DNA of 64,000 bases from Lachnospiraceae bacterium (GTDB taxonomy: Bacteria > Bacillota > Clostridia > Lachnospirales > Lachnospiraceae), in the NCBI GenBank assembly GCA_014239155.1, contig JAAZZQ010000037.1, positions 1 to 64,000 of the forward strand. Direction: 5' to 3'. A model generated the notes under the pieces. It was given only the letters and a program-made list of their open reading frames with translations, searched no databases and was not told the DNA's origin. The translations under genes and the position numbers were made by a program. Position 1 is the first letter of the stretch; every line of letters begins with the position of its first letter. Shown here one piece after another: positions 8,850 to 62,465 of this stretch.

Positions 8850-8984
8850 GTTACAGTTCAGCTTTGCCGGACTGTAACACATCAAGCCATGCAAAATCGC
8901 TGCGCGATAGCTTGATGCATCTCAACCACCATGTTTTCTTACGGACTTTGCAGCGCAGTGCAAAGCCCTAGGCTGAACCGTAAC
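8850..8984 (+). repeat. Hairpin-rich miniature element, copy A
   Basis: A 135-bp element with terminal inverted repeats GTTACAGTTCAG (8850-8861) and CTGAACCGTAAC (8973-8984). Inside are three stems: a left-end hairpin; a central one with ATCGC-TGC-GCGAT; and a right one with GGACTTTGCA pairing to TGCAAAGCCC. Flanking 8-mers ATAAATTA and ATAATTTA match at 6 of 8 positions, consistent with an old target duplication. It starts five bases after the chemoreceptor stop codon. Related copies are at 43537, 47917 and 59469. Confidence 0.75.
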
Positions 8985-9094
8985 ATAATTTACATAAAAT
9001 TAGCAAGTTTAAATTGTCAAATATAGAATTTACATAAAATAAAGTGAGTGTATGAAACATTTGCTTTATTTTTTTGTAAAAATACATAAAAATA

Positions 9095-9124
9095 TTGGAC
9101 AAAATTTATAAGTAGTTATATAAT
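9095..9124 (+). promoter_or_regulatory. Sigma-A promoter of the third chemoreceptor
   Basis: TTGGAC at 9095-9100 and TATAAT at 9119-9124, spacing 18 bp, the same arrangement as at 7075-7104. The 377-bp gap before this gene holds copy A of the repeat, this promoter and a leader of about 90 nt. Confidence 0.65.
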
Positions 9125-9222
9125 TTTAATATAAATATTATTTATCCTGAGCAGCCAAAATCTATGTCAGTCTACCGTGCGCAAAAGGAAATACTACACT
9201 ACAAAGTAAGGAGAATCGAATT

Positions 9223-10932
9223 ATGTTAAAAAAACTGAACAATCTACAAATCAGAGATCGACTCATTAGAGCCTTTGTTATGATCGCTTGTATGTTGACT
9301 GCCGTATCAGCTGTCATTCTGATCACGATGATTGTTATGTCGCGTCTCTACGCGTCCGCAATTGTTAACTATGGCTTTGCACAAGGCGATATAGGACGTG
9401 TAATGACACAGTTCGCCGACACGCGTTCCGCCATGCGTGGTATCGTTGGTTATGACGATCAAGATGCAATTAACAAACTGCTTTCAGATCGTGCTACCTA
9501 TAAGGAAAATTTCACAAAAGAGTTTAACAATCTTGAATCCAGTATGGTAACTGCAGAAAACAAAAAATTATATAGTGATATTAAAAATAAGCTGGTAGAC
9601 TACTGGAAGCTTGAAGAAGAAATTGTCACACAGGGTTCTACTGTTGATATAGAGCAGAGCAAACAGGCACAAGACAAAGCCTTAAATATACTAGTCCCTA
9701 TATACAATGAAATTTATGACGAAATGACCCAGATTATGGAAATTAAAGTGGATAAAGGACAGAGTGTATCCACCACGCTGACTGTTGTGATTATTATATT
9801 GACTGTTGTTATTATTATCATTATTGCAATATCAATCCTCTTCGCACTCTCTCTTGGCAAAGGCATTGCAAATAGCATTGCAGTCCCGCTTGACCAGATC
9901 AAAGCACGTTTGGATATCTTTGCAAAAGGAGACCTCTCGTCACCGTTCCCAACTGTTGAGACAAAAGATGAACTTGCAGATATGGTGACTGTCACCACAA
10001 ATATGGCAGCATCTCTTCAGTTTATTATTCATGATGTGGCACAAGTACTAGACCAGATGGCAAATGCGAACTTTGCAGTTATCAGCAAGGACAGAAGCAG
10101 ATATGTTGGCGAATTTGAAGCAATTCTAACCGCTATGCGGCTGTTAAAACGTCAGATGGCAGAAACGATACACGCTGTCAGTGAAGCTTCCAATCAGGTG
10201 GCTGCTGGTGCAAGCAATTTGGCAGACGCTTCCCAAAATCTTGCGGAGGGTGCTACTGATCAGGCTGGTGCTGTTGAGGAGATGCAAGCAACGATCACAA
10301 CAATCTCAGATGATATTCGTGCAACTGCAAACAATGCTGGTGCGTCTTACTCGCAGGCGCGTACATACGCAGATGAGGCGGAGCGCAGCCACAGAGAAAT
10401 GAAAGCAATGATGGAGGCAATGTCTCGTATTAATGACGCATCTCAACAGGTTGGAAATATTATCTCCGAGATAGAAGATATTGCTTCACAGACAAATCTG
10501 CTTTCCCTAAATGCTTCTATTGAGGCGGCAAGAGCCGGAGAAGCCGGCAGAGGCTTTGCAGTCGTAGCCGATCAGATTCGGCAGTTGGCAGAACAGAGTG
10601 CGAAATCTGCTGCGGAAACCAGAACATTAATCGAAACCTCATTGAGTGCAATCGAAGATGGAAGCAAGACTGCTGATGTGGTAAACGCCTCCATTGACCG
10701 CGTTGTAGAAGGCATTGAGTTGATTGCCAACTCTTCCAAAACCATTAGTGAGACAGCAACAGAACAGGCAGAAGCAATGAAACAGACTGAACTTGGTGTT
10801 AACCAAATTTCCGAAGTTGTACAATCAAACTCTGCAACAGCGCAGGAAGCTTCCGCTACAAGCGAGGAACTCTCCGCACAGGCTATGACATTAGACTCAT
10901 TAATTAGTAAGTTCACGCTGCCAAATGATTAA
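9223..10932 (+). CDS. Methyl-accepting chemotaxis protein, tandem paralog B
   Basis: A 569-residue receptor with the same layout as its upstream neighbour: membrane segment at about 18-42, four-helix-bundle-type sensor, Ile-rich second segment near 190-212, double HAMP-like region and signalling domain with [20 protein letters not shown]. Protein identity to paralog A is very high from the second membrane segment to the end, but many third codon positions differ. This argues for an older duplication held by selection rather than a fresh copy. Sensor residues differ more, so ligand specificity may have split. Start chosen after AAGGAGAATCGAATT. Confidence 0.93.
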
Positions 10933-10994
10933 AATTAGATAAATGACCACTTTAGTGGCATATTTCCTCTGCACAGGTCTGTGCATAAAGCAAT

Positions 10995-11024
10995 CGAGTA
11001 GGGAAGTTTTATCTTCCCTACTCG
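10995..11024 (+). terminator. Terminator-like hairpin after paralog B
   Basis: Perfect stem CGAGTAGGGAAG/CTTCCCTACTCG around a TTTTAT loop, 62 nt after the stop codon. Near-identical stems end the genes at 34748 and 53591, so this is a recurrent terminator sequence in this genome. A further hairpin GTCAGC-TTC-GCTGAC follows at 11039-11053 inside a longer imperfect palindrome. Confidence 0.65.
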
Positions 11025-11086
11025 CGCGCTGGGCACCCGTCAGCTTCGCTGACAATATTCCCTTGGGTGTCCATGCGCATAAGAAG

Positions 11087-11114
11087 AAAAGCCGATGTGT
11101 TCCCATCGACTTTT
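11087..11114. terminator. Bidirectional terminator between convergent genes
   Basis: AAAAGCCGATG pairs with CATCGACTTTT (one mismatch), followed by CTTTTT on the plus strand and preceded by a purine run that reads as T on the minus strand. It sits between the chemoreceptor and the convergent esterase, 22 nt from the esterase stop codon. Confidence 0.65.
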
Positions 11115-11135
11115 CTTTTTACATATAATATAATT

Positions 11136-11825
11136 TTATAATACTAACTCTTGATAAATTCCGCCCAGTTCCCGCAAACCATCTGCAATCAGACCTGCAT
11201 ACTTTACAGCGCCTTCATACCTTAAATGTGTATTATCCTCTTTTCCCTCTGGATAATTATCATAAATTCCTGCGTTAAAATACATATACCATTTGCGGCT
11301 CTCCTGTTCTCCTGCCCTTTTTAGCGCAGCACGACTCATACTGTATAAATCCACAAGCGGCACATTATTTTGTTCCGCTGTCTGCTTCATAGCCGCTACA
11401 TAATCTGAGTGTGCGCCCAAACCAAGCTGATTTGAATCCATAAAACATCTGCGTTCCAGAGGCGTAATCAACACTGGAAATGCATTGTGCTTTCTCGCAA
11501 CATCAATGTATTTTTTTAAATTTATCATATACGTAGAAAATGGTTCTGTATATCGTGCCGGGTCCTCGATTTTCTCATCATTGTGTCCAAATTGTATGAA
11601 TAAAAAATCCCCTTCTCCAATCTCTGCATCCATTGCACTTAAGCGCCCTTCATCAATAAAGCTCTTTGTGCTTCTTCCATTTTTTGCATGATTAAGAATC
11701 TCAACCCCTTCTCTTGTATAAAGCGAGAACACCTGTCCAATTCCTGTCTGCGGATATGTTGTAATTTTGTTTGTCTGAACGGTAGAATCCGCCGCCCAAT
11801 AAATTTTAATTGTCGTATTCTCCAT
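11136..11825 (-). CDS. SGNH-family esterase, rhamnogalacturonan acetylesterase-like
   Basis: About 229 residues with the SGNH/GDSL hydrolase blocks: block I reads WAADSTVQ, with the catalytic Ser kept but Ala replacing the usual Gly of GDS; block III reads QFGHNDEK; the final catalytic Asp-His pair is in DNTHLRYEG. This is the pattern of rhamnogalacturonan/acetylxylan acetylesterases, which remove acetyl groups from plant polysaccharide fragments. There is no signal peptide, so it probably acts on imported oligosaccharides. It is the last gene of the sugar-transport operon. I place the start at ATG 11825, just before the conserved strand. A TTG at 11855, with AAGGA overlapping the upstream stop codon, is an alternative. 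Confidence 0.82.
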   Translation of the reverse strand: MENTTIKIYWAADSTVQTNKITTYPQTGIGQVFSLYTREGVEILNHAKNGRSTKSFIDEGRLSAMDAEIGEGDFLFIQFGHNDEKIEDPARYTEPFSTYMINLKKYIDVARKHNAFPVLITPLERRCFMDSNQLGLGAHSDYVAAMKQTAEQNNVPLVDLYSMSRAALKRAGEQESRKWYMYFNAGIYDNYPEGKEDNTHLRYEGAVKYAGLIADGLRELGGIYQELVL

Positions 11826-11858
11826 ATTGATTTCCCCGCCGCCTGCGTTCTCCAACTC

Positions 11859-12725
11859 TTATTCCTTAACAGCTCCGATATTAACACCTTTTACAAAGTA
11901 TTTCTGTAAGAATGGATACAGAATCATAAACGGAAGAATCGCTGCGATAATGCCTGCGTTGTACAAAGTTGTCTGCGAAATTGGGTAAGCCGTAGGCGGT
12001 GTGTCACCATCCATAATCATAACACGAAGTTTATATTGGAAGTTTACCTGATCTGGAGAGTTTATGTAAATCTGAACTGTAGAGTAATCATTCCACACTG
12101 CCACAGCAAACATCAAACCAATGGAAGCAAGCGCTGCCTTTGAGAGTGGAAGCACAATCTTTACAAAAATTCCCATTGGTGTGCAACCGTCAATTCGCGC
12201 TGCCTCGTACAAACTTCCGGGAATCCCTTCAAAGAAATTTCGCATCAAGACAATATTTGACACATTGATACCATGCTTAATTACCAAAATCCACATATTG
12301 TTGAGTAAGCCAAGACGTCTCATTACCAAGTACTCTGGAATCATACCACCGGAAAAAATCATGGTAAACAACAGAAAGTATGCCAACAGATTACGACCGG
12401 GCATATCAAACTGAATCAGCACATAGCCCCCCAGTGTACTGAGCACTAGACCAAGCAGCGCACCCGCAATCGTTGTGACAAAAGAATTAATAAGGGGTCT
12501 TAAAAGCCCGCGCTCTCCCAAGATAACTTTATAGCCATCCAGTGTAAAATCCGTCGGCCACAATCGGAACTGATATACACCTACAGCGTTAAAAGAATCC
12601 ACTAATACTTTCCACATTGGTATTAAAATAATGAGTGCCAAGATGATAAAAACAATGTAATTGACCACAGAAAAGACCGTAATCTTTGTCTTTGGCTTTT
12701 TATAAGCCACTTTTGCTTCAGCCAT
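11859..12725 (-). CDS. Carbohydrate ABC transporter permease (LplC/MalG type)
   Basis: A 288-residue membrane protein with six predicted segments. The permease EAA loop reads YEAARIDGCTPMGIFVKIVLPLSK, in which the Gly contacts the ATPase. It ends with YFVKGVNIGAVKE, as in LplC/YtcP-type CUT1 permeases. It pairs with the permease encoded 11 bp upstream and the lipoprotein before that. No ATPase gene is nearby, as is usual for this family, which shares a common MsmX-like ATPase. Confidence 0.92.
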   Translation of the reverse strand: MAEAKVAYKKPKTKITVFSVVNYIVFIILALIILIPMWKVLVDSFNAVGVYQFRLWPTDFTLDGYKVILGERGLLRPLINSFVTTIAGALLGLVLSTLGGYVLIQFDMPGRNLLAYFLLFTMIFSGGMIPEYLVMRRLGLLNNMWILVIKHGINVSNIVLMRNFFEGIPGSLYEAARIDGCTPMGIFVKIVLPLSKAALASIGLMFAVAVWNDYSTVQIYINSPDQVNFQYKLRVMIMDGDTPPTAYPISQTTLYNAGIIAAILPFMILYPFLQKYFVKGVNIGAVKE

Positions 12726-12736
12726 ATTCGCACCTC

Positions 12737-13702
12737 CTATACAATGCCGCGGCCACGGACTTTATTGCTTGCCTTATTACAGATTAACACCAATATACAG
12801 CCAACGATAGAACGGAACAAACCTACTGCTGTCGAGTACCCGTAGTCTGGTCTAGCAACCATAAAGGTCTGGCGATAAATATAAGTACCAATAACATCAG
12901 ATACATCATACACTGCACTATTGTACAATACAAATACAGACTCAAATAGGTTCATAACCTTTGCCAGATTCAAAATCAAGACAGTGATAATTGTATTGGC
13001 AAGAGCTGGCATGGTCACATAGCGAATCTTCTGAAGACGCGTTGCACCATCAATATCAGCCGCTTCATATAGCTCCGGGCTAATACCAGATAATGTTGCA
13101 AGGAAGATAATTGTTCCCCAACCAGTATCCTTCCAAATATTAATCATATAGAATATTGGACGCCACATCTTAGAGTCTGCCAGGAAATAAATGCTGCTGT
13201 CATTTGGTCCTAATATCCCCATATCCCGCAACATACCGTTAATCATACCTGTGCTGGAAGGAGACAGAATCAAAGTAAAAATAGAAGCGACAACTGCCCA
13301 GGACATAAAATGTGGTAGATAAATAATCGTCTGCAAGGTCTTCTTTACAAAAAGATTTCCCATCTCATTTAAGAAGACAGATACAATAACCGACGCGAAG
13401 GTTGTCAAGAACAGTTTTACAAGGCTTAATACCAATGTATTGCCAAACGCCGACCAAAAGGCACTTGTGCTAAACATTCTTTCAAAATGTGTAAAACCTG
13501 TCCATGAAGGAGTTCCGCCTGCCTTGTACTCCATAAATGCATATCGGATACCCAACATAGGCCAATAATTTAGGATTAGTACAAAGATAAATACAGGCAC
13601 AAACATGATATAATGACCACGGTTGTTCCAGATACGGAGCCCCAATGGTTTTTTGCGGACCTGAACAGTGCCGGAAGTCATGGTTGTATTATTATTGCTC
13701 AT
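12737..13702 (-). CDS. Carbohydrate ABC transporter permease (LplB type)
   Basis: A 321-residue six-segment permease with the EAA loop PELYEAADIDGATRLQKIRYVTMP. Length and the N-terminal WPMLGIRYAFMEYKAG block match LplB/YteP-type partners of the LplC-like subunit. It forms the heterodimeric channel with the next gene. The start follows GAAAGGAAGAGACGGT. A strong hairpin separates it from the binding-protein gene. Confidence 0.92.
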   Translation of the reverse strand: MSNNNTTMTSGTVQVRKKPLGLRIWNNRGHYIMFVPVFIFVLILNYWPMLGIRYAFMEYKAGGTPSWTGFTHFERMFSTSAFWSAFGNTLVLSLVKLFLTTFASVIVSVFLNEMGNLFVKKTLQTIIYLPHFMSWAVVASIFTLILSPSSTGMINGMLRDMGILGPNDSSIYFLADSKMWRPIFYMINIWKDTGWGTIIFLATLSGISPELYEAADIDGATRLQKIRYVTMPALANTIITVLILNLAKVMNLFESVFVLYNSAVYDVSDVIGTYIYRQTFMVARPDYGYSTAVGLFRSIVGCILVLICNKASNKVRGRGIV

Positions 13703-13749
13703 ACCGTCTCTTCCTTTCTTAAATAAATGCTTGTTTTTTGGTTAAAAAA

Positions 13750-13789
13750 TCCCTGTGCTGCCGGGGCTGCCCCACAGGCAGTACAGGGA
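13750..13789 (-). terminator. Intra-operon hairpin after the binding-protein gene
   Basis: On the minus strand TCCCTGTACTGCC pairs with GGCAGCACAGGGA and is followed by TTTTTT. It lies between the binding-protein stop codon and the permease start. Such a partial terminator or RNA-end stabiliser is a common way to make more binding protein than permease. Confidence 0.7.
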
Positions 13790-13813
13790 ATATATGCGAT
13801 ATTGTTTCTGGAT

Positions 13814-15508
13814 TTACTGAGCGCTATTGAGTTCCTCTAAGATTTGGTCAACCAAACTGCCAACACTTGAAGTATACTTCTGCATAGCAGCGTCAACATC
13901 ACCGCCATTTACAACAACTTCTGCGATAACTACGTCACGCGCATCAATAATCTCTGCAGAACGCTCACTGTACGTCTCAGAAGCAGGTGCTGAAGGAGCA
14001 TCTACACAGTGATCGGTAAAGAACTTGTTGCTGACATCTTGCAGATCTGTGCTGCTAACAAATCCGTTTGTGAGTGGTGCGATAACAAGTGCTGGGTCAA
14101 GATGGTTCTTAACTGCAAGAACATTGGGGTCCTCCAGACCTGGGCGCATATGGAACTCGCCATCTTTGTAGGAGTACTCTTTTTTCTTGTCAGGATCATC
14201 TGGATAAAGTGCAAAATCCTCAGCCTCTGTAGACCATGCAATGCCTTCAGGACCATAAGTCCATAAAGTCTGCACCTTGTCACCATCAAGCATTGTATCA
14301 AGAATTGCAGTAAAGATTGCCTGCTCACGGGAATCATCGCCATCGCCATCATCTAGGATAACCCAAACTGGAGCCTCCCTGTTAAGATAACCGCCAAAAG
14401 TATCTGTGATTTCTTTAATGGGTGCCAGCTCATATACCTCGTTGTCCACACCGTTCTTTTCCAAGTTGTTTGCAAGATTCTGATACCATGTTCCTGCCCA
14501 GTATGTAAACACACCTGCCGAACCAGACTGCTCTGCACCATACCATTTCTCACGTGCATCCTTTGTGCCTGCGGTAAAGCTATCTGGGTCAATCACCCCA
14601 TCCTGATATGCCTTTTGCATTCTAAGGAGCGCTTCCTTTGCCTCTGGTGCTTGGAAACCATCATACCAAACGCCGTCCTCACCCTGAATAATGCTTGGGT
14701 ATGCTCCCTGCCAGAACTCTGCCACATAGTTAATCCACGGCGCCTCTGTTCCAATCAAACCTGCAGAAATAAATCCATAGGTATCGCCATCCACACCATT
14801 GCCGTCAGGGTCTTCTTTAGAAAATCTCTCTAACATATTGTAGAAATCATCATAGGTCTTAATATCGTCACCGTTAATGCCTAAATTATCTAACCATGCC
14901 TGTTTTATATATGTAATACAACCATTGCCATAAGTTGGTGCAAATCCGTACAAGTGTCCCTGAGCATCTTTTAAGCCCTCATTGATACCAGGCAATTTCA
15001 TGCGGTTTTGGAACTCTGCATTGTCATATGCATTTGCCATATCCCACAATAACCCCGTTGTCTCATACTGTTTGAGCATGTCAGCACTCATAATCATAAC
15101 GTCAGGATACTGCTCGCTAACAAACATACGCCCTACATACCCAGCATAATCAGAATGGCTTGCAACCTCAAAATCGATGTTAATCTCATGTCCAATTGCC
15201 TCGCCAACCGCCGCTTCAAGCTGTGGAATAAACGCATCTCTTGTCGTCTGCTGTGCCTCTGTCTCCTGTTTTACAGAATTTACTGTACCATTTACCATAA
15301 TCTTGACATCTGTCAAAACATAGTCTCCGGAATTCGTTTCCCCTGATGTATTATCAGATGATGTAGTGTCTCCACTCTTATCTGCAGAAGCTGTGTTACT
15401 GTTTCCAGATGAAGAGTTACTTGATGTTTCATTGTCGCCACCGCCACATGCAGTTAATGAGACAACCATTGTCGATGCTAATAGTAAGGATAATGCTTTC
15501 TTTTTCAT
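13814..15508 (-). CDS. Extracellular sugar-binding lipoprotein
   Basis: A 564-residue ABC substrate-binding protein. It has a lipoprotein signal with lipobox LTAC (Cys21), then a Ser/Thr/Asn-rich linker to about residue 62. The large two-lobe CUT1 binding domain is of the 500-plus-residue type typical of LplA/YtcQ-like proteins. It would sit on the outer face of the membrane and hand oligosaccharides to the two downstream permeases. The esterase in the operon suggests acetylated pectin or similar oligosaccharides, but this is inference. It is the first gene of the operon and divergent from the regulator. Confidence 0.9.
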   Translation of the reverse strand: MKKKALSLLLASTMVVSLTACGGGDNETSSNSSSGNSNTASADKSGDTTSSDNTSGETNSGDYVLTDVKIMVNGTVNSVKQETEAQQTTRDAFIPQLEAAVGEAIGHEINIDFEVASHSDYAGYVGRMFVSEQYPDVMIMSADMLKQYETTGLLWDMANAYDNAEFQNRMKLPGINEGLKDAQGHLYGFAPTYGNGCITYIKQAWLDNLGINGDDIKTYDDFYNMLERFSKEDPDGNGVDGDTYGFISAGLIGTEAPWINYVAEFWQGAYPSIIQGEDGVWYDGFQAPEAKEALLRMQKAYQDGVIDPDSFTAGTKDAREKWYGAEQSGSAGVFTYWAGTWYQNLANNLEKNGVDNEVYELAPIKEITDTFGGYLNREAPVWVILDDGDGDDSREQAIFTAILDTMLDGDKVQTLWTYGPEGIAWSTEAEDFALYPDDPDKKKEYSYKDGEFHMRPGLEDPNVLAVKNHLDPALVIAPLTNGFVSSTDLQDVSNKFFTDHCVDAPSAPASETYSERSAEIIDARDVVIAEVVVNGGDVDAAMQKYTSSVGSLVDQILEELNSAQ

Positions 15509-15581
15509 TTTCTTCCTCCCTTTTTAAAAATTAGTTTTTCTAAGAAATGATGCCGATTTCCAACAGCATCTCTTTAAACGT

Positions 15582-15611
15582 ACTATAGCATTGTGCATTT
15601 TGCTATTTCAA
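15582..15611 (-). promoter_or_regulatory. Candidate promoter of the sugar-uptake operon
   Basis: Minus-strand TTGAAA (15611-15606) and TATAGT (15587-15582), spacing 18 bp, about 74 nt before the binding-protein ATG. Confidence 0.5.
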
Positions 15612-15679
15612 GCTACAATTTTTGACTAACGTGCATATTTTGTACCTCCAAAAAGCAAAATCCTTTATTTTCGCGGTTA

Positions 15680-15693
15680 TGAAAACACTTACA
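15680..15693. promoter_or_regulatory. Possible cre (CcpA) site
   Basis: TGAAAACACTTACA differs at one central position from the cre consensus TGWAANCGNTNWCA. It lies in the divergent control region between the binding protein and the AraC-type regulator, as expected for carbon repression of a sugar locus. The loss of the central CG lowers confidence. Confidence 0.35.
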
Positions 15694-34085: not shown

Positions 34086-34748
34086 ATGAGTTTATCAGGA
34101 ATTGGAAATAACAATCCAACAGATTTGTACGCTGTTGAGGCAGAAAAAAAAGAAAATACTTCTTCAAAAGTTGATACTACAAAGAACGAAGCTGTGTCAA
34201 GTACAGAAGAGAAAGAGAAACCGGCTGCTGTCTATGATAAGAGAAAACTGTCAGACGAAGACAGAAAGTCTATTGTTGCGCAGCTTAAAGCAGATCAAGA
34301 GAAGCGCCAGAGCCAGTTGACGGACTTAGTACATAGTATGCTCAATACACAGACAAATACATTTGGCGAGGCAAACAATATCTGGCAGTTCCTTGCAAAA
34401 GGAAATTACACTGTCGATGCAGCAACACAGAAAAAAGCACAGGAAGCAATTTCCGAAGACGGTTACTGGGGTGTAAAGCAGACCTCTGACCGAATTGTAT
34501 CTTTTGCGACTGCACTTGCAGGCAATGATTCCAAACAGCTTGAAAAGATGCGTGATGCATTCTTAAAGGGATATGAGAAAGCTGAGAAAACATGGGGTGG
34601 CAAACTTCCTGACATTTCAAAGAGAACTTATGACGCCGTACTCGAAAAGTTTGATAAGCTAATGGAGCCAAAGACCGAGGACAAAGAGTCCACAAAGGAT
34701 ACTGTTACTACAACCGAAGATGGAACAGTTGTAGCAAGAGCACAATAA
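34086..34748 (+). CDS. Conserved clostridial protein of unknown function, possibly motility-linked
   Basis: A 220-residue soluble, hydrophilic protein with no signal peptide. The N-terminus (to about 70) is low-complexity and charged; the middle (about 90-205) is helical with DGYWGVKQTSDRIVSFA and KTWGGKLPDISKRTYDAVLEKFDKL. I recall similar unnamed proteins in Lachnospiraceae, possibly of the DUF5610 type, but cannot confirm it. The upstream sigma-D-like promoter suggests expression with flagellar genes. It has a strong AAGGGAAGGGA site and ends in a good terminator shared with sipL. Confidence 0.75.
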   Translation: MSLSGIGNNNPTDLYAVEAEKKENTSSKVDTTKNEAVSSTEEKEKPAAVYDKRKLSDEDRKSIVAQLKADQEKRQSQLTDLVHSMLNTQTNTFGEANNIWQFLAKGNYTVDAATQKKAQEAISEDGYWGVKQTSDRIVSFATALAGNDSKQLEKMRDAFLKGYEKAEKTWGGKLPDISKRTYDAVLEKFDKLMEPKTEDKESTKDTVTTTEDGTVVARAQ

Positions 34749-34751
34749 ATC

Positions 34752-34779
34752 GAGTAGGGGAAAAACCTTTCCCCTACTC
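34752..34779. terminator. Bidirectional terminator between convergent genes
   Basis: Stem GAGTAGGGGAAA/TTTCCCCTACTC, loop AACC, with TAATTTTTATTTT on the plus side. It ends both the unknown gene and sipL. The stem is kin to those at 10995 and 53605. Confidence 0.85.
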
Positions 34780-37368: not shown

Positions 37369-38151
37369 TTAAATCTCGACATCCTCTGCATTATAGACAG
37401 GACCATCTGTGCAAATCCGCGCATTGTTCACATGAGAATGATGGTCAATCTTTGTCGTTTTTACAACGCAGCCAAGACATGCCCCCACACCGCATGCCAT
37501 CCGCTCCTCAAGAGAAATATACGCGGCAATTCCTTTTTCGCCCGCATACTTCTTAATTGCCCGCAGCATTGGCATTGGACCGCAGGCAAAGATTATATCC
37601 GCCTCTAGCTTTTTCTCCTCAATAACATTCATAACAGTTCCCTTTGTGCCAACGCTGCCATCTTCTGTCGCGATATGAATTGATGCATACTTTTCCAAAT
37701 CCTCCGCTAAAAACAATTCCTTGTCCCGATAACCGACAATCACATCGATAGACGCCGCATTTTTAACTGCCTTTGCAACCGCGAGCATGGGAGGGATTCC
37801 GATTCCGCCGCCTATCAGAAAAAGGTGTTTTCCCTCTGCTTTTTCCAGAGGAAAACCATTTCCGAGCGCTCCGAGAATATCCACCCGATGGCCTGTTTTG
37901 TACCTTGAAAATTCCGTTGTTCCCTTTCCTGCCACGCGGTATACAATGCGCAACCGATCGTTTACAACATCCGTCTCACAGATGCTGATTGGGCGCGGCA
38001 GAAGTGCTGATTTGTCTTGTGTATACACGCTGATAAACTGCCCTGGTTTTGCCTGACGCGCTAATGTGGTATTGATCCACATGTCGTAAATTCCTGGTGC
38101 AATCTGCTGCTGTTTGTAAACTCTGGCGAATTCTTTTTTTTTCTGTTCCAT
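37369..38151 (-). CDS. pyrK: Dihydroorotate dehydrogenase electron transfer subunit
   Basis: 260 residues: an FAD-binding N-terminal barrel (LLPRPISICE), an NAD-binding middle (LIGGGIGIPPMLAVAK) and a C-terminal [2Fe-2S] site in CGVGACLGCVVK plus a later Cys in ARICTDGPVY. With PyrD it forms the heterotetrameric B-type enzyme that passes electrons from dihydroorotate to NAD+. It is first in the pyrK-pyrD pair. I looked for a PyrR-type attenuator in the 198 bp upstream and did not find a convincing one. Confidence 0.95.
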   Translation of the reverse strand: MEQKKKEFARVYKQQQIAPGIYDMWINTTLARQAKPGQFISVYTQDKSALLPRPISICETDVVNDRLRIVYRVAGKGTTEFSRYKTGHRVDILGALGNGFPLEKAEGKHLFLIGGGIGIPPMLAVAKAVKNAASIDVIVGYRDKELFLAEDLEKYASIHIATEDGSVGTKGTVMNVIEEKKLEADIIFACGPMPMLRAIKKYAGEKGIAAYISLEERMACGVGACLGCVVKTTKIDHHSHVNNARICTDGPVYNAEDVEI

Positions 38152-43536: not shown

Positions 43537-43714
43537 GATTATAGTTCAGTCTAGAGCGTGTTTGAAAAATGCTCTAAAACTTTGCCTTTACTGCAAAGTC
43601 CATAAATTTGTGTAGTGGTATAGATGCATCAGCCACGGGACGTGGCTTTAACACCACAAAGGATTTTTACATGGCTCGATACCTGTAACAGAAAGCTGAA
43701 GGCTCAACGGTTAC
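43537..43714 (-). repeat. Hairpin-rich miniature element, copy C
   Basis: About 178 bp, reversed relative to copies A and B. Read on the minus strand it runs from GTAACCGTTGAG through a left hairpin, AGCCATGTAAAAATCC, the AAGCCACG/CGTGGCT stem, GATGCATC, GGACTTTGCA and ACTGAACTATAATC. Its outer GTTAC end contains the ackA stop codon. The right stem is extended by an extra hairpin (GAGCATTTTTCAAACACGCTC region). No clear flanking duplication remains. Confidence 0.65.
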
Positions 43715-44910
43715 ACAATGGATACAAGCGTCGCTGTCTGTCTTGCAATCGCAAGCTCCTCGTTTGTTGGAACACACAGAAGTGCAACTTTGCTTGTCTC
43801 TGTGGAGATAACCCTATCTTCACCTCTAATATTGTTTTTCTCAACATCTATTTCTGTGCCAAGATATCCCAAATACTTTGCAATCTCAGCGCGTCCTGAA
43901 ATGTTGTTCTCCCCTACGCCTGCCGTAAATGCAATTGCATCCACGCCGTTCATCGCCGCTGCATAAGCGCCAATATATTTTGCCACACTGTAATAAAATG
44001 CCTCCAAAGCTACCTTTGCAAGCTGGTTGTCATTTGCTGCTGCCGCCTCAATATCTCGAAAATCCGAAGAAACTTTTGAGAGACCAAGCACACCTGACTT
44101 TTTGTTCAAAATCGTATTCATCTCCGCTGGTGTTATCTTTTCTTTCTGACAGATAAAATCACAGATAGCTGGGTCAATGCTGCCGGAGCGTGTCCCCATA
44201 ATAATGCCCTCGAGCGGCGTAAGCCCCATAGAAGTATCGACACACTTTCCATGATCAACTGCTGACACAGAACCGCCATTTCCTAGATGACAAACGATAA
44301 TCTTCAGCTCATCTCTGGTCTTGCCAAGAATCTTTGCTGCCCTTGCAGATACATAGTCATGACTCGTTCCATGAAATCCATAACGGCGCACCTTATACTT
44401 TTCATAATACTCATATGGAAGTCCGTATAGATAAGCTTTCTCAGGCATTGTCTGGTGAAATGCGGTATCGAACACTGCCACCATTGGCACATTGGGCATA
44501 ATCTCCTTGCAGGAGTTGATGCCAATCAAATTTGCCGGATTGTGAAGCGGTGCAAGGTCATTACATTCTTCTATTGCCGCCAAAACCTTATCATTGATAA
44601 TGACAGAAGAAGCAAACTTCTCACCGCCGTGAACAACGCGATGCCCAACTGCTTTAATCTCGTCAAGTGATTGAACCACACCATGATTTGCGTCAGTAAG
44701 CGCGTCAATCACAAGCTTGACCGCCACAGTATGGTTTGGCATTGGTGTCTCGATTATTACTTTGTCTTTTCCTGCAGGCGTGTGTGTAAGAACACTCCCG
44801 TCAATCCCAATGCGCTCGCAGAGTCCCTTCGCAAGCACAGCTTCAGTGTCGCTGTCAATCAGTTGGTATTTTAGCGAAGAACTGCCACAGTTGATTACTA
44901 AAATGTTCAT
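43711..44910 (-). CDS. ackA: Acetate kinase
   Basis: A 399-residue ASKHA kinase with [57 protein letters not shown] and FTAGVGENN. It makes ATP and acetate from acetyl-phosphate, a main energy step in fermenters. No pta is adjacent. The TAA stop codon is the terminal GTTAC of the repeat copy C (read on the other strand), though protein length is normal. A consensus cre site lies 79 bp upstream of the ATG. Start after ATGGAGGGATAATACA. Confidence 0.96.
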
Positions 44911-47776: not shown

Positions 47777-47916
47777 GCTTTGGCCTCCTTTGTATTACTG
47801 TGTTACTCCCCTTTTCTGAGTTCTTGCAAAATACAAGGCCTTTGTTTATACTATTATTATACTTTTTTCACAAAAATGTGTCAACAGCTAATTTGTGTTG
47901 TTTTTTTCAGAATATT

Positions 47917-48049
47917 GTTACTATTCACTGCGTTCCAGTAACAGGTAAAAATCCATGCAAAATCACCTTCGGTGATGGATTTTTACTTGAATGCGATACA
48001 TTTTCACACGGAATTAGCAGTGAATGCTAATTCCTGTCTGAACAATAAC
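47917..48049 (+). repeat. Hairpin-rich miniature element, copy D
   Basis: A 133-bp element with ends GTTACTATTCA and TGAACAATAAC. Left hairpin GTTACT...AGTAAC; central hairpin AATCACC-TTC-GGTGAT inside AAAAATCCA/TGGATTTTT; right hairpin GGAATTAGCA/TGCTAATTCC, a perfect stem. Flanking 8-mers AGAATATT and AAAATATT agree at 7 of 8. Its stems differ in sequence from copies A and B but keep pairing. The right end forms the last codons and stop of the neighbouring pseudouridine synthase gene. Confidence 0.75.
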
Positions 48050-48719
48050 AAAATATTTTCATAAATTTATCAATGTTCAACAAAAATTCCATTTTTTTCT
48101 GTTTTATTGGATGGATAAAGCACAACTGATATGCCAAAAGTGCTGTTTCACGGATAGAAAATGCATCTGACAACTCTTTTCCTTGCACAGATCCGTATTT
48201 TAAATCGCCCAGCAGTGGAAACCCTGCATATGCCATCTGCACCCGAATTTGATGATGCCTGCCAGTGAACAGTTCTATTTCCAAAAGAGAAACTTTATCA
48301 TTGTGCGCCAAAAGCTTCCACTGAAGGGATGCCTTTTTCGCCCCGGGTGTGTCCGCTAGGACTACTTTTGAAAGATTGGTTCGTCCATCCTTAATCAAAA
48401 AATCTGTCAGTACACCTTCCTGTGTCTGTGGTACTCCCGCAATCAAAGCCACATATTTTTTGGTAAGATTACCCTCCCGCAAACAGTCACTGAGCGTTTT
48501 TGCTGTGTGTGTATCCTTTGCAAAAACAAGAAGCCCCTCCACCGGCTGGTCAAGTCTGTGTACTATGCCAATATAGGTATCTTCACCTTTTTTCTTTCGG
48601 TAATTTTTTAATTCAGAAACAAGGTCTGCCTGACCAATCTTTGCAGTCTCTGTCGCAATCCCCGCAGGTTTGTGCACGACAAGCAGAACAGTGTCCTCAT
48701 ACATTATCATATTGTCCAT
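48027..48719 (-). CDS. RluA-family pseudouridine synthase
   Basis: About 230 residues. The catalytic Asp is in IVHRLDQPVEGLLVFAKD, with the RluA-type C-terminal motif TGRHHQIRVQMAYAGFPLLGD. It isomerises uridines in rRNA or tRNA; the target is unknown. It lacks an S4 domain. The final residues CYCSDRN and the stop codon come from repeat copy D, so the native C-terminus was replaced. I prefer ATG 48719, 9 nt after AGGA, over 48728. Confidence 0.86.
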   Translation of the reverse strand: MDNMIMYEDTVLLVVHKPAGIATETAKIGQADLVSELKNYRKKKGEDTYIGIVHRLDQPVEGLLVFAKDTHTAKTLSDCLREGNLTKKYVALIAGVPQTQEGVLTDFLIKDGRTNLSKVVLADTPGAKKASLQWKLLAHNDKVSLLEIELFTGRHHQIRVQMAYAGFPLLGDLKYGSVQGKELSDAFSIRETALLAYQLCFIHPIKQKKMEFLLNIDKFMKIFCYCSDRN

Positions 48720-48745
48720 TTTTGTCATTCCTATTCGGAGGAAAA

Positions 48746-53591: not shown

Positions 53592-53604
53592 TTTATCTTA
53601 AATG

Positions 53605-53632
53605 GAGTAGGGAAGTTTCATCTTCCCTACTC
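53605..53632 (+). terminator. Terminator after the sigma/anti-sigma pair
   Basis: Stem GAGTAGGGAAG/CTTCCCTACTC with loop TTTCAT, near-identical to the hairpin at 10995. It lies between convergent genes. Confidence 0.8.
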
Positions 53633-54485: not shown

Positions 54486-54502
54486 AACAGATCTCTCCCT
54501 TA

Positions 54503-55585: not shown

Positions 55586-55590
55586 TCGTG

Positions 55591-56910: not shown

Positions 56911-57031
56911 AAAAATACTCCTTTCTGTATTCTTTTACAGAATTCTTAAATTTATTTTCTTACTCATTATATCAAGTCTTTTATGTAACGGCTAGACTCA
57001 ATTATAAAAAATAAAAATTTTATACAGAATG

Positions 57032-57059
57032 AAAAAACAGCCACCCATCTTGGGTGGCT
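57032..57059 (-). terminator. Terminator of ftsH
   Basis: Perfect stem AGCCACCC/GGGTGGCT with a 5-nt loop, followed on the minus strand by GTTTTTTC. It lies 8 nt after the ftsH stop codon. Confidence 0.93.
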
Positions 57060-57066
57060 AAAATAC

Positions 57067-58869
57067 TTAGGCAAACAACGCCTCAAACTCATCTCTGCCA
57101 ATTTTCTCCTTCTCAAGAAGAAGATCCGCGCAGGCATGCAATACCTTTTCATTTTTCAAAATAATATCTTTTGCCTTCTTATAGCAATCATCTACAATTG
57201 CCTTAACTTCAATGTCAATCTCTCCGGCAACCGCTTCAGAATGACTTCTGGTATGTGCCAAATCACGCCCAATAAATACTTCGTTGTCCTCCTCGTCATA
57301 ATTAATAACACCAATATTCTCGGAAAAGCCAAATTTCGTTACCATCGCTCTTGCCACTTTGGTCGCCTTTTTAATATCACTTGAAGCACCTGTTGTCACA
57401 TCATCAAAAATAATTTCTTCCGCGATGCGCCCACCAAGCGACACCATAATATCCTGCAACATTCTACCCTTGGTGTTAAACATCTCATCTCGCTCTGGAA
57501 GTGGCATGGTGTAGCCTGCTGCGCCAAGTCCTGTCGGTATAATAGAAACCGTATAGACTGGTCCTACATCTGGCAGTATATGAAACAGTATCGCATGTCC
57601 TGCCTCATGGTAAGCTGTAATCTTTTTCTCTTTCTCTGAGATAATGCGGCTCTTTTTCTCCGCGCCAATTCCAACTTTAATAAAAGACTTTTTAATATCA
57701 TCTTGTTTAATAAAAGCACGGTTTTCCTTTGCAGCCTGAATCGCAGACTCATTTAAAAGATTTTCAAGATCTGCTCCAGTAAATCCTGCTGTTGTCTGCG
57801 CCACTTGTTTTAAATCCACATCTTCTGAGAGCGGTTTGTTTCTGGCATGTACATTGAGAATTTCCTCTCTGCCACCTACATCTGGCGGAGAGACTGTAAT
57901 TTTTCTGTCAAAGCGCCCCGGGCGCAAAATTGCTGGGTCAAGAATATCAACACGGTTTGTCGCCGCCATCACAATAATGCCCTCGTTTGTGCCAAATCCA
58001 TCCATCTCTACCAACATTTGATTCAAGGTCTGTTCCCGCTCATCATGACCGCCACCCATTCCAGTACCACGGCGCCTTGCCACAGCGTCAATCTCGTCAA
58101 TGAACACAATGCAGGGTGCATTTTTCTTTGCCTCCGCAAAGAGATCACGCACTCTTGATGCACCCACACCGACAAACATCTCCACAAAATCAGAACCAGA
58201 TATAGAAAAAAACGGCACATTTGCCTCGCCGGCAATCGCTTTTGCAAGCAGGGTTTTACCCGTACCGGGTGCACCCTCAAGCAATACACCCTTTGGAATC
58301 CTTGCGCCAACCTTTGTGTATTTTCCAGGGTCCTTTAGAAAATCCACAATCTCCTCAAGGTCCTCCTTCTCCTCCTTCAGACCTGCCACATCCTTCAATG
58401 TGACTTCGCCGCCAGTCATAAGACGCGCCCTGCTCTTTCCAAAATTCATCATCTTTCCGCCGCTGTTTCCAGCATTTTGGGCATTCATCATACTAAACAT
58501 AAACACGACGACTACCAATAACATCAACAATGGCAAAAGCTCTGTGATAAACCAATTCTCCTGCGGCACATCTTTCACAATGGGCTCAATATTGTAGTTC
58601 TTTACAATCTCCTGCGCCTCAACAACATCAGATACATAGAGATTTCGCTGCTGATTATCCTTTAATGTAACGCGCAGCATACCTGTTGGCACCTGAACAT
58701 TTGGGTGAATTTCTACATCTACAACAAGACCTTCCTCCATCTCAGAAATCAACTGTCCCATTGTGTAGGAGCCGCTGCCACCACTGTTGGTACTCGCCCA
58801 AATCAATACTAGCACCAATATCAGTATAAATATAAATGTTAAATTAATTCCTTTTGCACCTTTTCCCAA
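57067..58869 (-). CDS. ftsH: ATP-dependent zinc metalloprotease FtsH
   Basis: 600 residues: membrane segments at about 8-25 and 110-128, the AAA domain with Walker A GAPGTGKT at about 197-204, Walker B IVFIDEID, the second region of homology around RPGRFDR, and the protease site HEAGH at about 420-424 with a distant metal-binding Asp. It degrades membrane and short-lived regulatory proteins as a hexamer. Start is TTG after GGGAGGAGA. It follows hpt and tilS in the classical Firmicute order. Confidence 0.97.
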
Positions 58870-58898
58870 TTTCTGTCTCCTCCCGGTCCTGCCACTGC

Positions 58899-59429
58899 TT
58901 ATTCTTCGTCAAACGTAACCACTCCAATATATGGAAGATTTCTATAACGCTGATCATAGTCAAGACCATAACCTACCACAAATTTGTCAGGTATCTCAAA
59001 ACCTGTGTAGTCCACCTTCACATCAACCACACGCCGCTCCGGCTTGTCAAGAAGTGTACACAGCCTCATGCTCTTTGGCCCACGCTGCCCTAACAATTCC
59101 AGCAGATAACTTAGCGTTCTGCCAGAATCCACAATATCCTCTACGACAATCACATCCTTATCCTTTAAGGGCTCATCTAAGTCCTTTACAATCTTTACAA
59201 CCCCACTTGATTTTGTGCTCCCGCCATAACTTGACACAGACATAAAATCCAGGGATACAGGAACTGTGATTCGCTTGGCAAGTTCACACATAAAAAAACT
59301 GCCACCTTTGAGCACACACACCAAATGAACCTGCCTACCAGCATAGTCGCGGCTAATCTGCTCACCAATCGCGTTTATCCTATCGTTTACCTCGTCTTCC
59401 GTCAGCATGACTTCAATCTTTTCAGCCAT
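58899..59429 (-). CDS. hpt: Hypoxanthine phosphoribosyltransferase
   Basis: A 176-residue type I phosphoribosyltransferase with the PRPP loop [14 protein letters not shown] at about 94-107, [15 protein letters not shown] and [20 protein letters not shown]. It salvages hypoxanthine and guanine. It lies between tilS and ftsH as in Bacillus; repeat copy B is inserted in the 204-bp gap upstream. Start after AGGAGG. Confidence 0.96.
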
Positions 59430-59468
59430 AATTCGGTCCTCCTTTGTTTAACATACACCTGACAGTGC

Positions 59469-59623
59469 GTAACAGTTCAGCCTTTGGCTTCCTGTTACAA
59501 GCATCAAGCCATGCATAATCGCTTCGCGGTGTCAAAGCCACGTACCGTGGCTTGATGCATCTCAACTACTACGCTTTCCCACGGACTTTGCAGCGCAGTG
59601 CAAAGTCCTGTCTGAACTGTTAC
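59469..59623 (+). repeat. Hairpin-rich miniature element, copy B, with 8-bp target duplication
   Basis: A 155-bp element between tilS and hpt. Ends GTAACAGTTCAG (59469-59480) and CTGAACTGTTAC (59612-59623) are 12-bp perfect inverted repeats. It is flanked on both sides by GACAGTGC (59461-59468 and 59624-59631), a perfect 8-bp direct repeat. Inside: left hairpin (TAACAG...CTGTTA), central stems (ATCGC-TTC-GCGGT and AAGCCACG/CGTGGCTT) and right stem GGACTTTGCA/TGCAAAGTCC. No coding capacity. Confidence 0.85.
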
Positions 59624-59633
59624 GACAGTGCAC

Positions 59634-61097
59634 TTATGAATCCTCAGCATTTGTGTGCCTAAAAACAACGCACAAAATCGTCTTTGTCTGTTCACTCACT
59701 TTATAATAATTGCTGATTCGCTCACCCACAATCCACATAATGTGTCTGTCATCTGCTAGGAGACAAATCTGATCCCGGTCCTTTTGCGGAATCTTGCGAT
59801 CAACAAAGTACGATTTTAATGTTTTGCGTTGATTCATGGAATTTACTGTCAAATAATCCCCCGGCCTACGAGTTCTTATGACAATATTATTTTTTATTTT
59901 ACCATAATCAAACCATTTCGTATACTTATTTTGCGGAATATTTTCAAAATCAATGCCATTTTTTCCCACAGGAATTATTTTTATCTGCATCTTTTGATGT
60001 ACACCAATAAAAAATACAAGTTCCTCTCCCGCAAAAAGTGCATTCTGTTCTTCTACAGACAACGCAATCTCTGGAAACCCTATTGCCTGATTTGTTTTTT
60101 GTGTCACACAATCCGTAGAAATTTTGTACAAAGAAACACCTGTGTAGGTGCGCTCTGCTCGCAAATGATGTGGAAGCATCACAGTTCTTCCGCATTGACT
60201 GTCCATCAGTGCTTGCACTTGTCTGACATGAATTGCCTCCAAATCCTTACCGCTGCCAGATGCCTGTGCTAACACTGCAAAAATCACATATCCTTGTATT
60301 GTCGTGTGAAGCTGCAAAAACTGCTCCTTATCAATCTGAAAAACTTCTTTATCGAATTCTTTATCCACTTTGACACAAGCGGCAACTCCCTGTTTTGTAA
60401 ACTCTGCAATCAATTCATACGCATCTTTTATCTGCTCACAGGCATTATAAATATGGTCCACTGTCGCTGTGTTGATTTTTTTTTCCGCAGTATCCAAAAT
60501 ATGGTGCCGAATAATGTTCCTTGAATAATTATCTTCCAAATTGGTGCTATCTATGCAATATGGCATGTTTCTTTCCCGCAGAAACGCTTCAATCTCACTC
60601 CGCGACAGACATAGTAATGGTCGAATAATTGTATCGCGCACAGGCTGTATTCCTGTCAATCCCTTTAATGAGGTCCCTCGAAATAAATGAAACAAAAACG
60701 TTTCACAGCAGTCATTTTTGTTGTGTGCAACAGCAATTTTTCCTTTCTTTTTCCCCAACTCCCGCGCAAATGCATTGTAACGCGCAATACGCCCTGCCTC
60801 TTCCGTGGAAATATGGTGTTGTTGTGCCAGTGCACACACATCTTCTTCCACCAGTGTAAAAGGAATTTGTTCTATACTGCAAATTATTCGTACATATTCT
60901 GCATCCTTCGCGGCATCTGTCCGTATCAAATGATTGACATGCACTACGCGCAACTCAATTGGAACCTGCTTGCGAAATTCCAGAAGCATCAGAAGCAGGC
61001 AGACAGAGTCTGCCCCTCCTGACACGCCCGCCACAATGCAGTCGCCCTTTTCAATCATTTGATGTTCGTCAATATACTGCAACACTTTCTTTATCAT
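59634..61097 (-). CDS. tilS: tRNA(Ile)-lysidine synthetase
   Basis: A 487-residue N-type ATP pyrophosphatase with the PP-loop VSGGADSVCLLLML at about 24-37, the family HNKNDCCETFLFHLFRGTSLKGLTGI block and the C-terminal TilS domain (IRTRRPGDYLTVNSMNQRKTLKSYFVDRKIPQKDRD). It modifies C34 of the tRNA-Ile that reads AUA; this is essential. It follows spoIIE by 56 bp. The start has GAGGAAGT at 4-9 nt. The 3' end lies 2 bp from the repeat's flanking duplication. Confidence 0.95.
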   Translation of the reverse strand: MIKKVLQYIDEHQMIEKGDCIVAGVSGGADSVCLLLMLLEFRKQVPIELRVVHVNHLIRTDAAKDAEYVRIICSIEQIPFTLVEEDVCALAQQHHISTEEAGRIARYNAFARELGKKKGKIAVAHNKNDCCETFLFHLFRGTSLKGLTGIQPVRDTIIRPLLCLSRSEIEAFLRERNMPYCIDSTNLEDNYSRNIIRHHILDTAEKKINTATVDHIYNACEQIKDAYELIAEFTKQGVAACVKVDKEFDKEVFQIDKEQFLQLHTTIQGYVIFAVLAQASGSGKDLEAIHVRQVQALMDSQCGRTVMLPHHLRAERTYTGVSLYKISTDCVTQKTNQAIGFPEIALSVEEQNALFAGEELVFFIGVHQKMQIKIIPVGKNGIDFENIPQNKYTKWFDYGKIKNNIVIRTRRPGDYLTVNSMNQRKTLKSYFVDRKIPQKDRDQICLLADDRHIMWIVGERISNYYKVSEQTKTILCVVFRHTNAEDS

Positions 61098-61153
61098 TTG
61101 TACTTCCTCAAAAGCGAACTAGATACCCGCATAATACAGTTAAAAGCAATTGT

Positions 61154-62407
61154 CTATACAGCCTCCTCACGCCGTTTTACGCAGCAGGTAAGAACGGTCA
61201 TGTCATCTCGAATCCGCCCACCATCACTGTTAATAGCACACTGCAAAAGATAGTCTGCCATCTCCTTAGGATTGATAATATGGCTTCTTGAAATCATTTC
61301 CCGTGTCCTGCCTACCATCTCTCTGTCAATTGCATCTAAGATTCCGTCAGACACCATGACAAGCATATCTGTATCTGTCAGCTTGACACTCTGCGTAATT
61401 GGGCTTAACTCCTCCATGCTGCCAATTGGAAGGGTGTCCGCCGACACCTCATCCACCCAATTTCCGCGCTTAATATAGCTTGCCGCTGCACCTGCCTTGA
61501 TAAACTCTGCCTCTCCTGTCAGCAGATTGACTGCGCACAAGTCAAGCGTTGTCAGGTTACAGCAACCATTCTGCGCGGCAATTGCACCGTTGACCATAGC
61601 AAACGCCTTCTCCTTTGGAAATCCCGCCTCCAAAAAACGCTCCATAAACTCAATCACTGCTTGGCTGTCCCGACACGCTTGTACACCGCTCCCCATACCA
61701 TCTGCAATCATAACAATCATTTGATTTTGATTATATTCCTCCACAGAGAAATTGTCACCTGAAATTTTTTCATCTTCTCGCACTGCGCGGGAAATCGCGC
61801 TCAAAACTTTATATTTGGGTTCATCCTCATAGATAAAAGTATGGTATCCTCGCTCAATTCTCAGTGCGCTCTCCGCAGACAAAACAAGGCTTCTGCCAAA
61901 AAATTCTGAGAGTAGCCCCCCTAAAACACTTGCTGGTACTCCATGCTTGCTAATTGTGCGCGCCTCAATGCTGATTTTGGTTCCGCAGCGGCCATCAGCA
62001 GCGGTCCCATAGTTTCCAGCATCGCCGCCTTCCAGAAAAATTAATCCATGCACAATAATACCGCGCTTTTTTAAATATTGTATCAAGGTCCGTTTCTTAT
62101 GTGCCATTGGAACACTAAAATGCACAACGGTGTCTGCGACATCAGCAAACGCATCTGAAATCTCCTCAAGATGATTTGCAAAAACCTCCTTAGTCTCCTG
62201 TATTTGTTTCTGGTAGAGCATGTCCTTTCTGTCAATACAAGCATAATCTGCATCTGGTATGCCGCGATAGAGCTTTGCCAACTCCTCATATGTCTCTGAC
62301 AAACAATAGAGTTTTCGCTTGCTATATCCATTAAACAAATATCCTTCTGTGATTTTTAATTTATTTTCTGCCTCTCGCGAAGCCTTTGGTGTCCATACTT
62401 TCAACAT
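61154..62407 (-). CDS. spoIIE: Stage II sporulation protein E, membrane-less form
   Basis: 417 residues comprising a linker region and a complete PP2C-type phosphatase domain: MIVMIADGMGSGVQACRDSQ, LTTLDLCAVNLLTGEAEFIKAGAAASYIKRG, DMLVMVSDGILDA and RIRDDMTVLTCCV carry the metal-binding Asp residues. SpoIIE dephosphorylates SpoIIAA to activate sigma-F in the forespore. Canonical SpoIIE is about 800 residues with about ten membrane segments; these are absent here, and the frame upstream is non-coding. Position before tilS is canonical. Start after GGGGGACAATGTT. Confidence 0.85.
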   Translation of the reverse strand: MLKVWTPKASREAENKLKITEGYLFNGYSKRKLYCLSETYEELAKLYRGIPDADYACIDRKDMLYQKQIQETKEVFANHLEEISDAFADVADTVVHFSVPMAHKKRTLIQYLKKRGIIVHGLIFLEGGDAGNYGTAADGRCGTKISIEARTISKHGVPASVLGGLLSEFFGRSLVLSAESALRIERGYHTFIYEDEPKYKVLSAISRAVREDEKISGDNFSVEEYNQNQMIVMIADGMGSGVQACRDSQAVIEFMERFLEAGFPKEKAFAMVNGAIAAQNGCCNLTTLDLCAVNLLTGEAEFIKAGAAASYIKRGNWVDEVSADTLPIGSMEELSPITQSVKLTDTDMLVMVSDGILDAIDREMVGRTREMISRSHIINPKEMADYLLQCAINSDGGRIRDDMTVLTCCVKRREEAV

Positions 62408-62436
62408 AACATTGTCCCCCTGTTATTCTTCTCCAA

Positions 62437-62465
62437 TAACAGTTCAGCCTTTGGCTTCCTGTTAC
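62437..62465 (+). repeat. Solo left hairpin of the repeat family
   Basis: A 29-bp hairpin starting TAACAGTTCAGCC and ending CTTCCTGTTAC. It is identical to the left hairpin of copy B at 59470-59498. The rest of the element is absent. It sits between the spoIIE promoter and its start codon. Confidence 0.65.

Follow-up and report, generated by a model that had tools for sequence, protein, structure and literature searches.

The window analysed here, the whole 64,000-nucleotide stretch from a Lachnospiraceae bacterium (GenBank assembly GCA_014239155.1, contig JAAZZQ010000037.1, positions 1 to 64,000 of the forward strand), contains a family of short repeats with three hairpins, designated H1, H2 and H3, which is represented by four full copies (A to D) and two partial ones located among the genes listed in Table 1. 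The repeats are probably non-autonomous miniature inverted-repeat transposable elements (MITEs) of IS66 type, in which the hairpin arms are matched at the level of DNA and not as RNA. An original prediction, made from the letters of the window, had proposed a structured mobile element or RNA with compensatory stem changes at these places. Copies are indeed present there, off by a few bases at most, and the stems it quoted are found, GGACTTTGCA/TGCAAAGTCC in the copy at 59469, GGAATTAGCA/TGCTAATTCC and ATCACC/GGTGAT in the copy at 47917 and ATCGC/GCGAT in the copy at 8850; the letters it gave to the copies were out of step with coordinate order.

Table 1. Copies of the MITE family in the window, their target site duplications (TSDs) and adjacent genes or open reading frames (ORFs)
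Feature	Position	Strand	Remarks
Decayed copy	4779..4907	+	Clearly recognisable only in right part, ~4871-4907
Chemotaxis receptor gene	7058-8845		Just before copy A
Left TSD, copy A	8842..8849	.	ATAAATTA; right counterpart ATAATTTA at 8985-8992, 7/8
Copy A	8850..8984	+	Left end GTTACAGTTCAGC; H1 8850-8878, H2 8880-8917, H3 8943-8968
Chemotaxis receptor gene	9223-10932		After copy A
Copy B	43538..43714	-	Additional hairpin inserted near right end; right end set by eye, model match ends at 43561; TSD not recognisable
Acetate kinase gene	43711-44910	-	TAA stop provided by first bases of copy B, GTAAC
Left TSD, copy C	47909..47916	.	AGAATATT; right counterpart AAAATATT at 48050-48057, 7/8
Copy C	47917..48049	+	Left end GTTACTATTCACTG; H1 47917-47942, H2 ~47945-47986, H3 48010-48034
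Pseudouridine synthase ORF	48027-48728	-	Final 23 bp (last codons) inside copy C
Phosphoribosyltransferase gene	58899-59429	-	Flanks copy D, same strand as tilS-like gene
Left TSD, copy D	59461..59468	.	GACAGTGC; identical right counterpart at 59624-59631, 8/8
Copy D	59469..59623	+	Left end GTAACAGTTCAGCC, central hairpin extended; H1 59469-59498, H2 59501-59558, H3 59583-59608
tilS-like gene	59634-61097	-	Flanks copy D
Solo left hairpin	62436..62465	+	30 bp, H1 alone; TSD CTTCTCCA/CTTTTCCA, 7/8

Structure and distribution of the family

The family consensus is 137 bp, most aligned copies measuring 126–170 bp, and in most of the 126 rows aligned from the window's own genome the ends form inverted repeats, GTWACWGTTCA...TGAACWGTWAC. 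The left end, together with an inverted copy of its first 7 bases, makes up H1, a local hairpin of 26–30 bp overall. The H2 hairpin is long and its asymmetric loop contains ATGCAAAA, and H3 is a 10-bp hairpin close to the right end. At least five subfamilies are distinguished by eye, with left ends GTAACAGTTCAGCC, GTTACAGTTCAGCC, GTAACAGTTCAGAT/AC, GTTACTGTTCACTG and GTTACTGTTCACTC. Of the segments originally said to stay more constant, CCATGCAAAATC is fairly constant within several subfamilies.

Elements with the same GTAACAGTTCAG ends and other interiors were observed at L114 (C45:160058-160244), L115 (C57:75317-75503) and L102 (C79:35215 on), the first two duplicating their target with 7/8 and 8/8 bases in agreement, respectively. 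Very short forms are also present, namely the solo hairpin of the window at 62436-62465 (30 bp, duplication 7/8), L116 (C2:27604-27632; 29 bp, 8/8) and C61:4831-4898 (68 bp, 8/8), and either resulted from deletion or are the smallest forms able to move. The solo hairpin of the window is probably what was left when a deletion joined the internal CTGTTAC repeat to the terminal one or, alternatively, is mobile in its own right.

Copy A, used as a DNA query against the window's own genome (4.57 Mb, 89 contigs), gave 43 matches, and a covariance model made from 35 copies gave at least 136 matches there at E ≤ 0.001 from 150 candidates scored, at least one place appearing on both strands. With copy D as query, matches were obtained in the own genome and in 26 of 35 other genomes of the same genus, and in none of 24 genomes that belong to other families in the order. 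A 31-nt pattern derived from the central hairpin matched at least 110 stretches in named genomes. Among the matches listed, nearly all are Lachnospiraceae by label or by placement, including COE1, A4, Mediterraneibacter agrestimuris and Hominisplanchenecus murintestinalis, the exceptions being one metagenome-assembled genome labelled Porphyromonadaceae and one record labelled 'Bacterium'. Spread via plasmids or phages was dropped as an explanation, as neither the plasmid nor the phage collection contained a match to the family. The 31-nt H2 pattern also occurs at 2741-2771 of the viral contig IMGVR_UViG_3300010163_000502 (L279).

Mobility

The family is regarded as a mobile element because its copies possess inverted-repeat ends, an 8-bp TSD and reciprocal empty sites, and this part of the original prediction is borne out, additionally, by an IS66 element with matching ends described below. 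A duplication of exactly 8 bp is perfect in 45 of the 126 own-genome rows and agrees at 7/8 positions or better in 70, compared to 1.1 expected from shuffled flanks, with all rows used and two places present on both strands; lengths of 4–7 and 9–12 bp are near chance. Rows from other genomes behave similarly, 57 of 106 having an 8-bp duplication at 7/8 or better with 0.86 expected. Insertions are polymorphic, as locus L084 of the own genome and L221 of isolate G1-1A_111220.8 (G016) carry members of different subfamilies ~70 bp apart, each opposite an empty site, in flanks that are 97.6–99.3% alike, a comparison of contig against contig with an isolate listed as 7% contaminated and possibly a mixed assembly. 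A second pair, L039 and L233, is an approximate empty-site pair with flanks 87% and 72% alike. Nested insertion has also occurred, one copy lying within another at C12:45535-45814 with the outer duplication CTACTTTT. At mostly 126–170 bp, the copies are too short for a transposase gene.

L078 and L216 were considered as a shared insertion and rejected, being two different elements inserted near each other. Many loci of isolate G1-1A_111220.8 are 98–100% like the own genome; its contigs L174 and L232 are only ~85% alike.

Folding and covariation of the hairpin arms

Relative to shuffled sequences, three copies give folding z scores of -3.08, -5.57 and -4.75 (the third trimmed to 59475-59623) and the copy at 43.5 kb gives -2.48, with 3 of 200 shuffles as good. 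The covariation of stem arms that had been noticed in the window extends to many copies. In the 126 own-genome rows, two-sided change is observed at 31 of 32 pairs, with 428 cells double-changed compared to 115 in shuffles that ignore the relatedness of the copies, and sliding one arm by 1–3 columns reduces paired cells from 92.8% to 29–45%. In 112 rows from other genomes all 32 pairs show two-sided change, in 206 cells compared to 29.5 in the same type of shuffle; these rows come from a search of 100 loci picked partly by the central-hairpin pattern, which biases H2, and 13 of them derive from the close strain G016. Both large alignments were fitted to the model structure and hence lean toward it. 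In an alignment of 35 copies made from sequence only, 13 of 26 predicted pairs changed on both sides.

The history of these changes was reconstructed as parsimony counts on a single FastTree tree, 9 of the 126 rows having been dropped (2 second-strand readings and 7 partial or very diverged rows) before the tree, mutation-rate and H1-pairing counts. Events departing from Watson-Crick pairs comprise 87 to G·T, 119 to A·C and 67 reaching another mismatch in one step. There are 68 direct changes from one Watson-Crick pair to another, and 40 of these are transversion-type changes unreachable via a G·U step. Certain long branches, as well as alignment shifts, raise these counts. One-sided changes occur on tip branches 230 times and on internal branches 43 times, the corresponding values for two-sided changes being 36 and 32. 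Of the 36 two-sided events on tips, 14 come from two diverged copies, L069:2619-2751 and L086:10267-10402, and those of L029 (2) and L071:301-456 (3) partly reflect an inverted loop or an alignment shift; roughly estimated, ~4.8 two-sided tip events would arise by chance.

The arms interact as DNA, as one loop is inverted between close strains. At G000 C82 ~37369-37519, the H2 loop of L029:401-551 is inverted in place relative to the orthologue L271, a contig of isolate G1-1A_111220.8, the two having a common insertion site and 3 differences outside the element, and a second inverted loop is present in L175, from another genome. PMC8604942 describes template switching between inverted-repeat arms which homogenises the arms and inverts spacers, and PMC8794818 reports multi-base compensatory changes produced by template switching. 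The inversion of a loop in place therefore indicates that template switching between arms can yield paired changes without selection; its share of the covariation is what we infer. A screen of 238 rows with a simple loop motif classified 162 as normal, left 72 unclassified and flagged 4, the latter consisting of 2 real inversions, 1 second-strand reading and 1 false match. L071, a candidate third inversion from the pair table, was rejected, as its sequence runs in the normal orientation.

The covariation had originally been ascribed to selection on folding, beyond that needed for transposition ends. The second half of this statement stands, as the hairpins are absent from three full IS66 elements and 109 of 114 copies keep local pairing of the left arm at position 3, compared to only 63 of 114 in which that position pairs with the far end. 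Selection is not proven, since template switching makes paired changes too and a loop inversion is visible, and selection on a DNA hairpin is still to be considered. Such selection for a hairpin or cruciform, in which spread would require palindromes and unpaired variants would fail, is compatible with the explanation preferred here and has an appreciable, if less than even, chance of operating, for example if H1 served the transposase as a palindromic site, or through hairpins in single-stranded DNA at the replication fork. One-sided changes being mostly on tips with two-sided changes about equally divided, H1 retaining its local pairing more fully (91.6%) than the two transposon ends retain their match (80.5%; 114 of the 117 remaining rows) and subfamily stems still pairing after large sequence turnover all speak for it. 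However, arm copying on long internal branches predicts the same contrast between tips and internal branches, elements without H2 have TSDs (29 bp, 8/8, which is explicable by deletion after insertion, and 68 bp, 8/8), and these hairpins are absent from the three full IS66 elements. Template switching and hairpin selection are not separable by the present data and both may act. It appears rather unlikely that IS66 transposition relies on the hairpins as functional DNA structures, such that each mobile copy must fold and a MITE family of the DDE-transposase kind evolves through compensatory changes in its DNA, with paired mutations supplied in a single step by template switching; with the same low likelihood, H1 would then be a local palindromic end and H2 and H3 would fold in single-stranded or cruciform DNA.

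The probable IS66 partner

GTAA-type ends combined with an 8-bp duplication led to IS66 being suspected as the partner. IS66 inverted repeats begin GTAAGCG and are associated with 8-bp duplications (PMC11946415), and a 15-bp IS66 end, GTAACCGTCCGGGCA, is printed (PMC12888890). Matches to PF03050 are present in 18 of 38 genomes of the genus. A 2251-bp IS66-family element carrying a 571-aa transposase gene was found in another species (L125, genome G003, 1329-3579), its ends, read inwards, being GTTACTGTTCACAGG and GTTACTGTTCACTCC, both of which begin GTTACTGTTCAC, with the TSD GCTGCTTT (8/8). These ends share 12–15 bp with the MITEs, matching two GTTACT-type subfamilies, and GTTACTGTTCACTCC is also found in MITE copies such as L095. 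The transposase matches PF03050 with an E value of 3.9e-25, above the Pfam IS66 cut-off, and scores 167.8 bits against the NCBIfam IS66 model, slightly under the cut-off of 180. Two further IS66 elements, at L130 (2323 bp) and L131 (2304 bp), have GTTACTTTTCAC ends and TSDs of 8/8, and L128 has one end similar to that of L125. Both ends and a TSD were recovered in just 1 of 12 IS66 loci, which had been cut ~1.5 kb to each side. H1, H2 and H3 are absent from the ends of L125, L130 and L131 as judged by eye and, for L125, also by folding.

A pattern for the terminal inverted repeats (TIRs) gave 232 matches compared to 41 for the reversed pattern, and no autonomous copies, sought as TIR matches paired 0.5–5 kb apart, were seen by eye among the matches listed. 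A classical IS66 within the own genome was rejected as the source, PF03050 having no match there. The second IS66 copy of L129, in which the TIRs match and the TSD does not, was set aside, and half-copies in G016, G033 and G035 were rejected as transposase carriers, as the stretches concerned yielded no long element combining TIRs with a good TSD.

It is improbable that a non-IS66 transposase, from another DDE family making 8-bp duplications, moves the MITE. The own genome has recent insertions yet no IS66 gene, and the MITE is found in 26 of 35 other genomes of the genus compared to 12 of 38 for relatives of the L125 transposase, some of them fragments only and none of them in the own genome; against this, the 12–15 terminal bases and the TSD length agree with those of a genuine IS66 element of the genus, further IS66 elements of which have near-identical ends.

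RNA or DNA

An RNA helix accepts G·U and not A·C, and the reverse holds for the opposite strand. The 3,826 own-genome cells contain 3,440 Watson-Crick pairs, 112 G·T, 147 A·C and 127 other mismatches, cells from other genomes contain 36 G·T and 57 A·C, and tip mutations at paired sites are C-to-T in 72 of 1756 and G-to-A in 83 of 1729 instances. Mismatches are thus nearly strand-symmetric and G·T does not exceed A·C, which indicates that folding is not kept as RNA to a large degree and leaves the RNA half of the original prediction without support. The data argue away from RNA selection and toward a process acting nearly alike on both DNA strands.

Rfam gave no match at gathering thresholds across the window and none at E ≤ 1 for copy D. 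No terminator-like site is present at copies A and D, the two scanned, and of promoter-like sites copy D has none and copy A has 2 where 0.6 are expected, neither of them inside the element; a terminator or promoter role was dropped on these grounds. Orientation shows no clear preference with the crude gene calls used: of 113 copies, 25 have a called gene on each side, and of these 12 are opposed to and 6 aligned with two co-directional genes, 4 are between convergent and 3 between divergent genes, and an orientation bias was likewise dropped as nothing convincing. A structured RNA selected to fold, transcribed from the element or adjacent genes, is therefore very improbable, for while low folding energy, strong covariation, the location of some copies between same-strand and possibly operonic genes such as the tilS-like/phosphoribosyltransferase pair, and an A·C excess that could hint at weak opposite-strand selection would suit it, the modelled strand has no surplus of G·T, A·C outnumbers it only slightly in cells (147:112 and 57:36), the tip rates of both classes are alike, and the Rfam, terminator and orientation results offer it nothing.

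Proposed mechanism

The DDE transposase of an IS66-family element whose ends resemble GTTACTGTTCAC would act in trans, recognising the 11–14 bp terminal repeats and inserting the MITE with duplication of 8 bp of target, a step inferred from the shared ends. The three hairpins are DNA palindromes in which one arm would be recopied from the other by template switching during replication, their upkeep probably being aided by more successful spread among copies whose palindromes are intact.

Several observations weigh against this interpretation. An IS66 transposase, intact or broken, is not found in the own genome, which has no match to PF03050; it may have been lost or been missed by the 89-contig assembly. 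The commonest MITE left end has only 9 of 12 bases in common with the IS66 element to which the GTTACT types are an exact match. Only 2 loop inversions came out of the 238 rows screened (72 left unclassified by the motif), and they could in principle be assembly errors. Paired sites mutate on tip branches at ~0.55–0.7 of the unpaired rate, which suits selection or arm correction alike. A·C exceeds G·T in 6 of 6 helix-by-dataset comparisons and by 23 to 8 on internal branches, which is at odds with a wholly strand-symmetric process.

Comparison with known systems

REP/REPIN sequences are likewise short, intergenic, palindromic repeats, but are moved by the RAYT tyrosine transposase, whereas the TIRs and 8-bp TSDs of this family indicate a DDE transposase. 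RAYT mobilisation leaves no target duplication, and the family has 8-bp TSDs; no search aimed at RAYT genes was made. IS66 insertion sequences resemble the family in their 8-bp direct repeats and GTAA/GTTA ends. The family differs from them in having no transposase, in its terminal repeats, which start GTAACAG/GTTACTG and extend over ~11–14 bp rather than starting GTAAGCG and extending over 20–30 bp, and in its three internal hairpins. Because its copies are too short and the genome has no PF03050 match, the family is at most an IS66-linked MITE and not an IS66 element.

The Correia/NEMIS, ERIC and RUP MITEs (PMC2229807) are similarly shorter than 200 bp, without transposase and equipped with TIRs, TSDs and long stem-loops, and RUP is tied to IS630-Spn1 by common ends; most of these elements have TA-dinucleotide ends, in contrast to the 8-bp TSD, IS66-type ends, three separate hairpins and arms covarying between subfamilies found here. 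The template-switch papers (PMC8794818, PMC8604942) likewise describe DNA replication errors that lead to compensatory changes, homogenised arms and inverted loops, but in RNA genes and yeast coding sequence, the present case being a mobile element with more than 100 copies in a single genome.

The family is apparently new and unnamed, and may be the first IS66-linked MITE family, as none was found in the literature searched, the available text of which covers few subscription journals. Covariation is usually taken as proof of functional RNA; here textbook covariation occurs in a DNA transposon without the G-U excess expected of RNA selection. The family lends itself naturally to telling selection and template switching apart, and is a warning for RNA discovery that relies on covariation.

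Other repeats

A separate palindrome, AATCGAGTAGGG..CCCTACTC, is present in the window in three copies, at 10992-11023, 34748-34779 and 53601-53632, and is possibly another small repeat family or a terminator; a similar motif adjoins the MITE copy in L032. At 1974-2168, a 33-bp unit is repeated six times within an open frame, apparently encoding an acidic, Asp/Glu-rich repeat.

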